Shown one piece after another: positions 5,526-10,248 of a stretch of DNA of 10,248 nt. The stretch is from positions 1 to 10,248 of the forward strand of contig CAMLMI010000156.1 in the NCBI GenBank assembly GCA_946480965.1. Direction: 5' to 3'. The position numbers were made by a program, and so were the translations under genes. This DNA comes from an uncultured Verrucomicrobiales bacterium (GTDB lineage Bacteria > Verrucomicrobiota > Verrucomicrobiae > Limisphaerales > CANJSG01). The stretch's first letter is position 1. Every line of letters starts with the position of its first letter. A model generated the notes under the pieces. That model saw only the letters and a list, made by a program, of their open reading frames with translations. It searched no databases and was not told where the DNA came from.

Positions 5526-5545
5526 TCGAGTTTCTTGTTGCCTCC

Positions 5546-5585
5546 GGGGCCGGCCTTGTCGTGCGTGGCCGGCCCCTTTCCTTTT
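5546..5585 (+). terminator. Rho-independent terminator hairpin after the PEP-CTERM gene
   Basis: GGGGCCGGCC (5546-5555) pairs perfectly with GGCCGGCCCC (5567-5576) across an 11-nt loop. It is followed by the T-rich TTTCCTTTT (5577-5585). It lies 20 bp after the PEP-CTERM stop and only 3 nt before ATG 5589 of the next gene. It may therefore end the upstream transcript, attenuate read-through, or mask the start of the next gene. Confidence 0.8.
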
Positions 5586-5588
5586 CCC

Positions 5589-8120
5589 ATGCTCCGTCCC
5601 CAGTTCTTCCTCCTCGTCCTCGTCTTCGTCCTGTTCCCCTGCGCGGCATCCGCCCAGGAGATGCGCGCCCTCTGGGTGGACACCTTCAACGCGGGAATGC
5701 GCAACGCCTCCGAAGTCTCCGCGCTCGTGGCCAACGCCCGCGCGGGCAACTTCAACGCCGTCTTCGTCGAGGTCCGCAAGCGCGGCGACGCCTACTACAA
5801 CAGCCAGTTCGAGCCCAAGGCCACCGACGTCAGCCCGCAGAGCTTCGATCCCCTCGCCGATCTCATCGCCAAGGCCCGCACCGGCGGCGCGCCCATCGAG
5901 GTCCACGCCTGGATCACCACCTATCTCGCCTGGAACCGCCAGGCCACGCCGCCCTCCCAGCCCACGCATCCCTATAACCTCCACCCCGACTGGCTCAGCC
6001 GCGACGACACCGGCGAAACCTGGGACGACTCGAACTACCAGTTCGACCAGGGCCATCCCGAGGTGCAGCAGCACGTTTTCAACGTGGCGATGGACCTCGT
6101 CTCGAACTATGACCTCGACGGTTTCCACTTCGACTACGTGCGTTTCTCCGGCAACCGCTGGGGCTACCACCCGGTAGCGGTGGAACGGTTCAAGCGCCGC
6201 TTCAACCGCAGCGCCACGCCCGCCTACAACGACCCGCTCTGGCTCCAGTTCCGCCGCGACCAGGTCACGGGCCTCGTGCGCAAGGTCTATCTCTCCGCCA
6301 TCGCGCTGAAGCCGCAGATCAAGATCTCCGCCGCCACCATCTGCTTCGCGCCGGGCATCACCGGCGATTCGCAGTGGTTCAGCAGCTCCGCCGCCTACAC
6401 GGACAAGCTCCAGGACTGGCGCGGCTGGATGCAGGAGGGAATCCTCGATCTCAACGTGCCGATGGCCTACTTCCGCCAGAACGACGCGGGCCCTGGCTAC
6501 AACCGCGCGACCGACTGGACCAACTGGTCGAACTTCGCGAAGGACCGGAAGTTCAACCGCCACGTCGCGCTCGGTGCGGCCACCTATCTGAATTCCGCCT
6601 CCAACTCCATCCACCAGCTCCGCACGACGCGCGTTCCCACCGCGTCCGGCAACCGCGCCGACGGCGTCTTCCTCTACTCCTACGCCGCGCCGGGCACGAA
6701 TGTGACCCGCACCCAGTTCTACGCCGCCTTGACCGTCGGCCCCAACGCGCACGACACGAATACAACGGCCGTCTTCGCCTCGCCCGCCACCGTGCCCGAG
6801 ATGCCGTGGAAGACCTCGCCCACGCGCGGCCATCTCAAGGGCTTCATCACGGGAGCCGACGACGGCACCGCGCTCGACGGCGTGAAGGTGCTGCTCACCG
6901 GCGCGCAAAGCCGGGGCCAGACCAACGACGCCACCGGCTTCTACGGCTTCGTCGATCTGCCTGCTGGCGACTACTCCCTGACCGCGAGCTACAGCAATCG
7001 CCTGACGAAGACCGTCTCCGTCTCGATCACCAACGGCTTCGTCACCACGCTCGACCTGGCCCTTGATTCGCCCAACCTCTCCACCATCGCCGGACTGGCC
7101 GCTCACCCCGGCGAAACCGAAGCGATCCTCACCTGGAACGAAACCACCGAGCAGGTGCTGCGCGTGGAATTCGGCCCGACCGCGCAGCTCGGGAGCACCT
7201 CGACCGTCGATGCCGTCTCGGCCCAGGCCCGATCGTTCCTGCTGCCGGATCTGGCGGGCAACAGCGCGCACTTCTTCCGCCTCGTTTCCCTCTCGGGCAC
7301 CAACCTCCGGACGACCGCCATCGGCGGCTTCACCACGGCGGGCCTGATCGATCTCGACAATCCCTCGGCCCAATATGTCGGCAGTTGGACCACGGCCACT
7401 TCTTCCACCGACAAATATCTGGCCGACTACCGTTTCGCCGGAACGTCGGTCGGTTCCGAAACCGCCACGGCCACCTTCACCCCGTCCATTGCCACGCCGG
7501 GGCGTTATGACGTGTTTGTCTGGTATCCGCAGGGGGCCAATCGTTCCACGGCCGCGCCCCACACGGTTTCCGGCGCGGACGGCGCGGTTGTCGTCCCGGT
7601 GAACCAGACGGTCAATGGCGGCGGCTGGCGGTTGTTGGCTTCGGGTCGGCGCTTCGCCCAAGGCACGGGCGGCTTCGTCCGGCTCTCCAACCAGACGCTC
7701 GACGCGGCCAAGGTGGTCATGGCGGACGGTGTGCGCTTCGCCTACGCGGCCGATCAAGGCCCGGTCCCGGACTGGTGGTTGCAGGCGCACTTCAACGCAT
7801 TGCCCGATCCGACCCTGGACCCCGATGAAGACGGCCTGACCACGGCCGAAGAATACTTGCTGGGCACGATCCCTACGGAAGCCGCCTCGACCAGCTCGCT
7901 GGTCATCGAACCGATTTCGGCGAACGAACTGAGATTCGTCTTCTCCCCCTACCGCGCCGACCGCAGCTATCGCCTGCTCTCCGTCTCCGCGCTGGAAGAA
8001 CCAATCTGGACCCCGGCAACCAACGCGACTCTAAGCGTCCTTGGTGAACGCACCGCCGCCTTCACGATCACGAACCTGACGGATGCCCAACGCTTCTTCC
8101 GGGTGGAGACGAGCGAGTGA
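5589..8120 (+). CDS. Secreted GHL10/DUF187-family glycosyl-hydrolase-like protein with accessory domains
   Basis: The protein is 843 aa. ATG 5589 opens a clear signal peptide (hydrophobic residues 6-18, likely cut at ASA|Q after residue 22). A TTG 54 nt upstream would place the terminator stem inside the coding region and is unlikely. Residues 25-400 are a TIM-barrel glycosyl-hydrolase-like family 10 domain (GHL10, YngK-type): MRALWVD (25-31), HAW (106-108), GFHFDYVRFSG (178-188), later DLNVPMAYF. Residues about 414-488 match a carboxypeptidase-regulatory-like sandwich (LKGFITG...GTALDGVKV...FVDLPAGDY). Residues 495-585 look FN3-like. Residues 586-718 match the golvesin/Xly-type carbohydrate-binding domain (VGSW...GRYDVFVWYP...GGWRLLASG). 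Asp744-Pro-Asp-Glu-Asp-Gly starts an EF-hand-like DPDEDGLTTAEEYLLGT. The last 70 residues form a C-terminal 'FFRV' sandwich. Family members are presumed to cleave bacterial or other polysaccharides; the substrate is unknown. It is convergent with the topoisomerase gene. Confidence 0.92.
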   Translation: MLRPQFFLLVLVFVLFPCAASAQEMRALWVDTFNAGMRNASEVSALVANARAGNFNAVFVEVRKRGDAYYNSQFEPKATDVSPQSFDPLADLIAKARTGGAPIEVHAWITTYLAWNRQATPPSQPTHPYNLHPDWLSRDDTGETWDDSNYQFDQGHPEVQQHVFNVAMDLVSNYDLDGFHFDYVRFSGNRWGYHPVAVERFKRRFNRSATPAYNDPLWLQFRRDQVTGLVRKVYLSAIALKPQIKISAATICFAPGITGDSQWFSSSAAYTDKLQDWRGWMQEGILDLNVPMAYFRQNDAGPGYNRATDWTNWSNFAKDRKFNRHVALGAATYLNSASNSIHQLRTTRVPTASGNRADGVFLYSYAAPGTNVTRTQFYAALTVGPNAHDTNTTAVFASPATVPEMPWKTSPTRGHLKGFITGADDGTALDGVKVLLTGAQSRGQTNDATGFYGFVDLPAGDYSLTASYSNRLTKTVSVSITNGFVTTLDLALDSPNLSTIAGLAAHPGETEAILTWNETTEQVLRVEFGPTAQLGSTSTVDAVSAQARSFLLPDLAGNSAHFFRLVSLSGTNLRTTAIGGFTTAGLIDLDNPSAQYVGSWTTATSSTDKYLADYRFAGTSVGSETATATFTPSIATPGRYDVFVWYPQGANRSTAAPHTVSGADGAVVVPVNQTVNGGGWRLLASGRRFAQGTGGFVRLSNQTLDAAKVVMADGVRFAYAADQGPVPDWWLQAHFNALPDPTLDPDEDGLTTAEEYLLGTIPTEAASTSSLVIEPISANELRFVFSPYRADRSYRLLSVSALEEPIWTPATNATLSVLGERTAAFTITNLTDAQRFFRVETSE

Positions 8121-8122
8121 TC

Positions 8123-8141
8123 CCGTAGCGGCGAACGTCCG
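8123..8141. repeat. Left part of a split REP-like palindrome, including 12-bp direct repeat copy 1
   Basis: CCGTAGCGGCGAACGTCCG begins 2 bp after the glycosyl-hydrolase stop. Its first 14 bases are the exact reverse complement of 8483-8496. Its last 12 bases (8130-8141, GGCGAACGTCCG) recur directly at 8472-8483. The right arm of the hairpin is missing here and is found only about 340 bp away. Confidence 0.85.
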
Positions 8142-8483
8142 GCCACAGCGCGCTAGCCTCTTGATGTTTTCAACCGGTCATCCAATCAAGGATCGCCGAT
8201 AGCACTCTCTCACCAAAGGCGCGGTGCTGTGACCACCACCTGCGCTCTGCCTTGCGGCACTCAGGACAATATATGACAAGCTCCCTCCTCTTGATCGAAA
8301 CTGTCCTTATCTGAGGGCTGCCATAAAACACGTAGCACCGGCCGTGTGGAAACTTCTCCCTCGCTTGAAAGTAGCCGCTGTCTCGCACCCGACTGTCGTG
8401 GATCTTTCGCGCATTCCCCTCAACGAGGTCGCAGCCGTGTAGATCACATTTTTTCGTGTCGGACATGACGAGGCGAACGTCCG
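8142..8483. mobile_element. Putative minimal inserted element: 330-bp single-ORF segment plus one 12-bp target duplication
   Basis: The segment 8142-8471 is bounded by perfect direct copies of GGCGAACGTCCG (8130-8141 and 8472-8483). Deleting 8142-8483 joins the two flanks into a perfect palindrome with 14-bp arms and the loop GTCC. It would leave a 39-bp gap between the convergent genes at 8120 and 8502. A hand count of 8161-8460 gives 162 G/C in 300 (54%), against 63-67% in neighbouring coding lines. The only ORF inside fills nearly all of it, running on minus from 5 nt inside the right boundary to 28 nt from the left boundary. I see no transposase, no terminal inverted repeats and no integron attC site, so the mobilising agent is unknown. 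The alternative is two separate REP-like copies that happen to flank a resident gene. Confidence 0.5.
8170..8466 (-). CDS. Small Zn-ribbon-like protein of unknown function
   Basis: This is 98 aa and basic. A Cys7-Asp-Leu-His10-Gly-Cys12 cluster near the start and a Cys67-Pro-Glu-Cys70 knuckle near the end would make a two-knuckle zinc site. Between them is the YFQAREKFPHGRCYVFYG stretch, and the tail is RKAERRWWSQH plus an amphipathic end. It loosely resembles small hypothetical proteins of Planctomycetes and Verrucomicrobia that pair an N-terminal C-x-x-H-G with a C-terminal YCPxCRxAE. I assign no function. Its base composition is lower in GC than its neighbours. The ATG lies only 5 nt after a hairpin (8472-8489) and 36 nt after the topoisomerase stop, with no Shine-Dalgarno motif. 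It probably depends on read-through from the topoisomerase gene, or it may not be expressed. Confidence 0.65.
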   Translation of the reverse strand: MSDTKKCDLHGCDLVEGNARKIHDSRVRDSGYFQAREKFPHGRCYVFYGSPQIRTVSIKRRELVIYCPECRKAERRWWSQHRAFGERVLSAILDWMTG

Positions 8484-8496
8484 TTCGCCGCTACGG
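8472..8496. repeat. Right part of the split REP-like palindrome, including direct repeat copy 2
   Basis: GGCGAAC (8472-8478) pairs with GTTCGCC (8483-8489) across GTCC, so this copy still forms a 7-bp-stem hairpin alone. The outer arm GCTACGG (8490-8496) has its partner only at 8123-8129, beyond the inserted segment. It starts 6 nt downstream of the topoisomerase stop codon, a position typical of a terminator or REP element. Confidence 0.85.
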
Positions 8497-8501
8497 CTCG
8501 G

Positions 8502-10248
8502 CTACTCCCGCTCGGGGAACTCGAAGTTGACCTTGCCCTTCGCGTCCATGACCAGCCACGCGGAGAAGGGCTTGCCGGACTTGCTGATGAACTTGTCCAA
8601 CAGGTCGCTCTTCTTCGTCGCGAGCAGCTTCTTCACCTCTTCGGGCGAAACCTCGCGCTGGAGGATGACCTTGCCGGTCTTGAAGGTGCAGCGTTTGGTC
8701 TCCCGCTGCGTGTTCTCGCAGAGGTAATCTTTCGGTCCGGTGAAGACCTTGCCGCCGCACTTGGGACAGACGCCGAGCGACTCCTGGCCGGCGAAATCCA
8801 CCGGAGCCTCGGGCTCCTTCGACTTCGCCGACTTGCCCTTGGCCTCGCGCTTCTCGAACTCGAACTTCACGTTCTTGTCCTTGTCGAGGGTCAGGAAGGC
8901 CTTGAACGTCCGGTTCGTCTTCTTGCTGACGAACTTGTCCAACAGGTCGGTCCGGCCGTTGGCCAGCAGCTTGACGATCTGGGCCTTCTCGATGGGCTGC
9001 TGGAGGATGACCGCGCCGGTCTTGAAGTCGCACGTCTTGCCCGCGCCCACGGCCTTCTCGCAGACGTAGTTCATCCCGTTCTCGAAGACGCGCGCACCGC
9101 ACTTCGGACAGGTGCCGAGCGGTTCCTTGCCGGTGAAGTCCACCGGGGCCGCGTCCTTGCCGTCCTCGTCCTTCTTGTCCTCGCCGAAGTCGAACTTCAC
9201 CTCGTTCTCGGGCGAGAGCTTGATCAGCGCGGCGAAAGGGAACCCCTTCATGCTGCGGAAGCCCTGGAGCGGCCCGATCTGCTTGTCACGGATCAGCGTC
9301 TCGACCTCCGCGGGCTCGAACATGCGGCTGGAAAGAACCTTCCTCACCGCGAAGTCGCAGCTCTGGCACTTGAACTCGCGGAACTTCTCGTGGATCTCGC
9401 CGCCGCACTTCGGGCAACGCGCGGTCAACACACCGAAGTCGCCGGGAATGGTGTCCTTGTCGTAGCGCTTGGCCTTGCTGACGATCTCCTCGGTGAAGCG
9501 CCGGATCTCGCCCATGAACTGGTCGCGGGGCAGTTGGCCGCGCTCCATCTTCTTGAGCTGGAATTCCCAGTCGCCGGTCATCTCCGGCTTGGTCAGCTCG
9601 CTGACGCCGAGGCCGTCGAGCAACTGGACCAGCGAGAAGGCCTTGGCCGTGGCCTGGAGCTCGCGCCCGTTGCGCAGAAGATACTCCTCCGAGATGAGGC
9701 CTTCGATGGTGGCGGCGCGGGTGGCGGGCGTGCCGAGACCGCGTTCGCTCATCGCGTCGCGCAGCTCCTCGTCGTCCACCAGCTTGCCGGCGCTTTCCAT
9801 CGCGCTGAGCAGCGTGGCTTCGGTGTAGCGCGGCGGCGGCTTGGTGGTGTTCTTCTTCACCTCCACGTCGGTGGTCTGGACCTTCTCGTTCGGCTGCACG
9901 GGCGCGAGGCTCGGCGCTTCGTCCTCGCCCTGCGCCTCCTTGCCGTAGACCTCCAGCCAACCGGCCTTCACCAAAACTTTGCCCACGCTCTTGAACGGCT
10001 CGCCTTCCACGCGGGTGATGCGGACGGTCTCCATGTGCTCCGCCGCCGGGTAGAAGATGGCGAGGAAGCGCTTGGTCACGAGGTCGAACAGCTTCTGCTC
10101 GGGCTCGCTCAGGTTCTTCGGCAACTGGCCGGTGGGAATGATCGCAAAGTGGTCGCTGACCTTCGCGTTGTTGAAGATGCGCTTGTTCGGATGCACCCAG
10201 CCGGAACTCAGGATCTTTCCGGCGAACGGCGCGTAGTTCGTGTCGCCC
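8502..10248 (-). CDS. topB: DNA topoisomerase III-like type IA topoisomerase, C-terminal part; 5' end outside window
   Basis: 581 residues are visible before the TAG at 8504-8502; the start, the Toprim domain and probably the catalytic Tyr lie beyond the right edge. The fragment numbering used here begins at the edge. KVSDHFAIIPT (29-39) is the conserved type IA segment after the active-site region, with TopB-type spelling. GLGTPATRAATIEGLI begins at 170, followed by the usual PEMTGDWEFQLKKM region. Then come three C-terminal topoisomerase repeats (Toprim_Crpt type), each with four cysteines: CPKC/CQSC at 268-287, then Cys380, 383, 396, 406, then Cys494, 497, 510, 520. Each repeat ends in a KFDF, KFEF or NFEF strand. 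Repeats two and three also share a 19-bp identical DNA stretch (8589-8607 and 8931-8949), suggesting a fairly recent internal duplication. The enzyme decatenates or relaxes DNA by single-strand passage. A TopA with repeats is less likely. Confidence 0.93.
   Translation of the reverse strand, partial: GDTNYAPFAGKILSSGWVHPNKRIFNNAKVSDHFAIIPTGQLPKNLSEPEQKLFDLVTKRFLAIFYPAAEHMETVRITRVEGEPFKSVGKVLVKAGWLEVYGKEAQGEDEAPSLAPVQPNEKVQTTDVEVKKNTTKPPPRYTEATLLSAMESAGKLVDDEELRDAMSERGLGTPATRAATIEGLISEEYLLRNGRELQATAKAFSLVQLLDGLGVSELTKPEMTGDWEFQLKKMERGQLPRDQFMGEIRRFTEEIVSKAKRYDKDTIPGDFGVLTARCPKCGGEIHEKFREFKCQSCDFAVRKVLSSRMFEPAEVETLIRDKQIGPLQGFRSMKGFPFAALIKLSPENEVKFDFGEDKKDEDGKDAAPVDFTGKEPLGTCPKCGARVFENGMNYVCEKAVGAGKTCDFKTGAVILQQPIEKAQIVKLLANGRTDLLDKFVSKKTNRTFKAFLTLDKDKNVKFEFEKREAKGKSAKSKEPEAPVDFAGQESLGVCPKCGGKVFTGPKDYLCENTQRETKRCTFKTGKVILQREVSPEEVKKLLATKKSDLLDKFISKSGKPFSAWLVMDAKGKVNFEFPERE

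Follow-up and report, generated by a model that had tools for sequence, protein, structure and literature searches.

Mobile insertion cassettes and MITEs are non-autonomous elements that may carry passenger genes and make target duplications, and they have terminal inverted repeats. GTAG-tagged REPs and their dimers (BIMEs, REPINs), as outlined in parts of the literature on them, combine a GTAG foot with a short stem and loop and occur as outward pairs; according to passages of two reports they are known from Verrucomicrobia (Opitutus terrae) (PMC3733652, PMC3116915). REPs are also documented targets of insertion sequences, and sections of one report describe ISPsy8, ISPa11, ISPpu9, ISPpu10 and ISRm22, all of which carry a transposase and are flanked by repeats of 3, 0, 2, 2 and 6 bp, respectively (PMC1525189). 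Across the titles and abstract openings of the papers listed by literature searches, no gene-carrying, transposase-free insertion into a REP with a long duplication was found.

The locus described here lies in a 10,248-nucleotide stretch of DNA from an uncultured Verrucomicrobiales bacterium, the whole of which was analysed (the window), and it resembles each of these systems in part. Like GTAG REPs and their dimers it has a GTAG foot, a short stem with a loop and an outward pair, whereas its rebuilt copy has feet at either end and its two copies, with a gene between them, cover 374 bp. With the insertion sequences found in REPs it shares a REP broken at one point and a direct repeat, present in most of them, and it differs from them in carrying a single gene without a transposase match and a repeat of 12 bp. 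As in integron cassettes and solitary attC sites, a promoterless gene starts beside the boundary and has a homologue behind an attC-like site; unlike them, the junction has no detectable attC and shows a 12-bp duplication. A non-autonomous make-up, a passenger gene and a target duplication recall mobile insertion cassettes and MITEs, from which the segment differs in the absence of terminal inverted repeats. The features of the locus are as follows.

5535..8120, plus strand: gene for a GHL10 / golvesin_C protein, the convergent neighbour.
8123..8129, plus strand: outer left part of the putative REP palindrome, CCGTAGC, with the GTAG foot pointing outward.
8130..8141, plus strand: direct repeat, copy 1, GGCGAACGTCCG.
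8142..8471, no strand: inter-repeat segment, 330 bp, GC 55.2%.
8170..8466, minus strand: 98-aa gene, for a small protein with C-x2-H ... FPH ... CPEC.
8472..8483, plus strand: direct repeat, copy 2, GGCGAACGTCCG.
8484..8496, plus strand: outer right part of the putative REP palindrome, TTCGCCGCTACGG; this part and copy 2 together form an almost complete REP of the ordinary kind, reversed in orientation.
8502..10247, minus strand: topB-like gene for a DNA topoisomerase part with Toprim_Crpt repeats, running past the window end, on the strand of the 98-aa gene.

The geometry given in the original prediction, a one-gene segment set between two halves of a palindrome, was confirmed. The left side (8123-8141) reads CCGTAGC+GGCGAACGTCCG and the right side (8472-8496) reads GGCGAACGTCCG+TTCGCCGCTACGG, with 330 bp between them; the two 12-bp copies are identical, and deletion of the segment together with one repeat yields a perfect 32-bp palindrome, CCGTAGCGGCGAACGTCCGTTCGCCGCTACGG, with 14-bp arms and the loop GTCC. 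As a single strand this palindrome folds at -18.2 kcal/mol, compared to a mean of -6.1 for shuffled sequences (z -6.8), and with the segment and one repeat gone the GHL10 stop (8120) and the topB stop (8502) would be separated by 39 bp. The 12-bp repeat passes through the loop of the palindrome in direct orientation, and its centre, read along the 98-aa gene, is C-G^TT. Beyond what had been predicted, the ORF shares its strand with topB and begins, at its ATG, 5 bp away from the right repeat; moreover, the right copy taken alone is a near-complete REP whereas the left one is not.

Pairs of identical 12-mers no more than 1 kb apart number 28 in the window, compared to a mean of 2.4 and a maximum of 12 in 300 first-order Markov sequences, so a 12-bp repeat by itself is unremarkable in this GC-rich DNA. 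Its significance comes from the 7-bp outer flanks, which are complementary in the right register, a coincidence with a chance of about 1e-4 per pair. Such abundance of short direct repeats, and the fact that the locus is represented by a single contig, would suit an explanation by accident or artefact, in which unrelated repeats surround an ordinary small gene or the contig is misjoined; against the complementary flanks, the match to a REP family and the strong step in composition, this explanation is hardly credible.

By its anatomy the palindrome matches a GTAG-tagged REP, and both window copies agree with the REP foot and first arm. When the genomes of the order were searched with TAGCGGCGAACGNNCGTTCGCCGCTA, allowing 2 mismatches, 15 sites were found in 5 of 320 genomes, with none for the reversed control among the matches listed. 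The looser frame CGTAGCGGCG-N10-CGCCGC was found in 33 of the 320 genomes, with about 135 matches in all and a maximum of 37 in one genome; because its reversed control also matches (about 42 genomes, about 52 places), single matches of the frame may be chance, whereas three or more copies were found in 10 genomes for the frame and in 1 for the control. The stem letters of the frame matches vary as pairs (for example AAC/GTT, GTC/GAC and TTC/GAA). As REP samples we then used the surroundings of the pattern sites, in loci at most about 3 kb long. With the tighter of two motifs, in a set that also included attC and viral loci, 71 of 81 sites were intact hairpins, none of which had the foot on both sides. 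With the looser motif there were 76 intact REPs and 18 broken ones. Numbers of broken sites are upper counts, as some are hairpins in another register (e.g., L134, L142 and L209 in the first set). The loop contains GG in 70 of these 76 intact REPs; read foot-first, the right window copy has the loop GGAC, which fits the GG type, and the left copy has the unusual loop GTCC.

Genes for Y1_Tnp, the transposase type (RAYT) to which GTAG-type REPs are linked, were present in all 8 REP-bearing genomes of a sample made up of REP-bearing genomes alone; in 30 loci of such genes, a strict motif detected no REP of the window type beside the gene. One genome (G187) has 56 Y1_Tnp matches, a number of them near contig ends, which suggests a highly multiplied single-strand transposon. 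Another (G098; L198, L207, L210, L219 and L222) has five similar outward REP pairs at different places, each with an 88-bp gap, and looks like the host of a recently spreading REPIN. In viral contigs the 22-bp core had no exact match, and CCGTAGCGGCGAAC was found at 122 sites at least; among the matches listed, 4 had a second arm with 2 mismatches or fewer, and 3 of these are true REPs in a single IMG/VR contig classed as viral (L256, at 403, 3234 and 7422), which are either prophage REPs or the sign of a misclassified contig. Twenty viral stretches with GGCGAACGNNCGTTCGCC were compared as well; one of them, L363, proved symmetric, carrying GTAG and CTAC at the two sides but other letters between foot and stem.

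The arrangement of the two window copies can be read in two main ways. In the reading we favour, with moderate confidence, a foreign gene was inserted once into one REP, with duplication of part of it. Alternatively, two GTAG-outward REPs (an HH dimer or REPIN) would flank the gene, the second arm of the left one having been lost, and no insertion into a single palindrome would have taken place; the direct repeat would then be the shared hairpin core extended by a chance match of the loops. We regard this alternative as a strong contender, at lower confidence. According to parts of one report, HH pairs, with GTAG outside, are preferred in the majority of GTAG families, usually at distances of 20-100 bp, and DNA inserted between REP partners has been described (PMC3733652). 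In the relatives, 30 of 47 neighbouring REP pairs are outward (12 are inward and 5 tandem), so that two outward feet can be had without any insertion. Moreover, the right window copy taken alone is a normal REP, with 1 mismatch in the 9 positions of its second arm, and all 71 intact REPs are one-sided, for which reason a symmetric REP ancestor would be unusual. The left copy alone has a perfect foot and first arm, and mismatches at 4 of the 9 positions of its second arm (the form without a second arm is written as CCGTAGCGGCGAACGTCCG). With that arm and a span of 374 bp the two copies are not an intact inverted pair, and what would be left of a dimer here is a decayed one, which we entertain tentatively. 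A decayed left REP is not rare, since 6 of 29 outward pairs with a gap of 200 bp or less have a partner scored as broken, and this count led us to weigh insertion slightly lower and the dimer slightly higher.

On the other hand, those 29 pairs differ from the window in other respects. The longest direct repeat shared by partners is 10 bp (4-9 bp in the others), compared to 12 bp in the window; their 14-nt ends are identical in one pair of the 29, as they are in the window; and they span 60-140 bp, compared to 374 bp. Two inverted REPs would not be expected to give a direct-orientation 12-bp repeat across the loop. If a single palindrome received the insert, the left loop, read foot-first, should be the reverse complement of the right loop, as is the case; a dimer makes no such prediction and would produce it by chance about once in 256. 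Furthermore, the left copy lacks its second arm just where an insertion would cut. The original prediction held that the locus would be just two neighbouring repeats if REPs commonly occurred in the same two partial forms without an insert; broken REPs do exist in the relatives, and among the 18 collected, none had complementary partial forms or could be rebuilt by deleting a repeat-bounded segment within 1.5 kb (loci of up to about 3 kb).

Searches for the ancestral and related states speak against insertion. The intact 32-bp palindrome, whose presence in relatives had been proposed as a check, was found in none of 50 family genomes within 3 mismatches, and a symmetric frame occurred in 7 of 288 phylum genomes, with one exact hairpin (G501), more rarely than its reversed control. 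A protein search with the topB-like product yielded 65 loci (best identity 76%), mostly MAGs labelled Verrucomicrobia, Pedosphaera or Limisphaerales; a few others are betaproteobacterial, and several clearly carry wrong labels. The source would accordingly be an uncultured member of this verrucomicrobial group. By tblastn the GHL10 protein was present in none of these 65 loci, and no empty topB-GHL10 site was found among them, some of the contigs stopping shortly after topB; over all fetched loci the GHL10 search gave one match, L156. Protein queries of 25, 196 and 384 genomes (overlapping samples) detected no second copy of the segment and no close match to the 98-aa protein. As to the prediction, the event, in which a REP-like hairpin took up an insert and part of the target was duplicated, thus stands as the better of two readings, in line with REPs as documented targets, whereas the class of element does not: with no other segment copy, empty site or second split REP found, a non-autonomous element that targets REP hairpins is unsupported, there being just one example, which is a lead rather than a class.

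The segment is foreign in composition, and its gene encodes a real protein. Its GC content, predicted to be low, is the minimum of the window (mean 66%), and none of the 898 330-bp intervals outside its neighbourhood reach so low a value. The GC3 of the 98-aa gene is 65%, compared to 94% in topB (8502-10196) and 88% in the GHL10 gene. As also predicted, this gene is the single ORF of the segment; as the segment extends only 5 bp upstream of its ATG, the gene has no promoter of its own. The protein has C-x2-H close to its N-terminus, a central FPH and a CPEC that precedes a Trp. A search of 5.8 billion proteins, which reaches just those relatives that share 5-residue words, returned one match, the close homologue P0001 (66% identity over its length), and a profile that included a distant relative from L089 led to P0002-P0005, of which P0004 is nearest (56% over 65% of the query) and the others are distant. 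The C-x2-H, FPH and C-P-x-C landmarks recur in L089, L435 and L436, which were kept as real relatives for this reason, while most of the weak genome matches to the 98-aa protein, and to the extension of P0004, were set aside as chance. These three members of a Verrucomicrobiota small-protein family have N-terminal extensions that by eye resemble export signals. Judging from these matches, the 98-aa gene appears to be rare and patchy.

The results agree with the predicted absence of a transposase and of visible terminal repeats. The 98-aa protein has no match above the cut-off in Pfam and none in NCBIfam at E 1, its best PHROGs value is 0.17, for an entry of unknown function, and none of the three collections identifies it as a transposase or nuclease. 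No relatives were detected among viral contigs, and Rfam gave no matches at the gathering threshold. The predicted structure has a mean pLDDT of 48.5, and the model is too poor for use. Terminal inverted repeats were not found in the segment, 8 of 25 end positions being matched.

Insertion by an integron would not by itself make a 12-bp duplication. Two features that the 98-aa gene has in common with integron cassettes are the lack of a promoter and the start next to the boundary. Its homologue P0004 has an N-terminal extension of 44 aa, read through an attC-like site directly before its start, and because the extension looks like attC read-through, the gene for P0004 would appear to sit where a cassette gene sits. 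Repeats matching this extension were found in 5 of 146 genomes with E values no higher than 0.001. In order genomes we collected attC-like DNA sites; a fixed motif was present in 10 of 16 loci, and as L156 and L383 are the same site, nine were used (L153, L155, L375, L376, L377, L378, L379, L381 and L383). They form a conserved family and share a long hairpin ending in CGTT, followed 13-21 nt later by an ATG in 5 of the nine, with end boxes such as CGTTAG or CGTTCGGC; we take them to be attC from their anatomy and what is generally known of attC rather than from a curated model.

One alternative mechanism is an off-target integron event. Here an integron integrase supplied in trans would have put a former cassette into the REP stem at its C-G^TT, and the attC of the cassette would have been lost later. 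This C-G^TT resembles the AAC/GTT core of attC. The residues of P0004, of which the protein alone was read, would fit a GTT placed 13 nt ahead of the ATG, and in the window the GTT stands 12 nt ahead of it; the end box CGTTCGGC, present in 3 of the nine sites, is one letter from CGTTCGCC in the window. Off-target cassette insertion by IntI has been proposed, in part of one paper (PMC8618304), and placement by an integrase is attractive because the 12-bp repeat, when read along the gene, has C-G^TT at its exact centre. On the other hand, a profile of the nine attC-like sites had no match after the 98-aa gene (8123-8172), and pairwise similarity of the gene tail to attC was weak (shuffle fractions 0.025 to 0.78), so the 3' tail was dropped as an attC candidate. 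Together with the duplication, for which integrase action does not account, this makes the off-target event unlikely. A more general version, that one-gene units of the cassette pool integrate outside integrons at REP hairpins, with the AAC...GTT stem as a stand-in site and a 12-bp repeat that has C-G^TT at its centre as the trace, is more improbable still; were it true, REPs would be genome-wide landing sites for cassette genes.

Returning to a single insertion into one REP, we infer the event, its order, its mechanism and the expression of the gene as follows. The ancestral state would have been a single symmetric GTAG-type REP hairpin filling most of the 39-bp gap between GHL10 and topB. 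Into this hairpin 330 bp of foreign DNA, comprising hardly more than a single gene without a promoter, would have been inserted once, and 12 bp of target (GGCGAACGTCCG) duplicated, as in the fill-in of a staggered cut. The most economical course would be a single capture, in which a staggered break across the hairpin was joined to a one-gene fragment and its ends filled. As the segment has no transposase, terminal inverted repeats or detectable attC, the agent was most likely an enzyme acting in trans or the capture of DNA during break repair at the hairpin, and the gene probably came from a cassette-type gene pool. Expression would come only from outside, for instance by read-through from topB. 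If the insertion holds, a gene of foreign origin that has no mobility functions we can recognise has lodged neatly within a REP hairpin, at a convergent gene junction where an insertion does little harm; this would offer one testable route for the spread of orphan genes in Verrucomicrobiota and a link between the REP hairpins and the solitary attC-like sites of these genomes.

Two observations concern other genes. In five of the topB loci (L003, L004, L017, L022 and L031), what looks by eye like the start of a tyrosine-recombinase-like gene lies downstream of topB. At the other end of the window, positions 3-2462 of the minus strand presumably encode, also by eye, a serine beta-lactamase-like domain fused to a DUF1343-like one.
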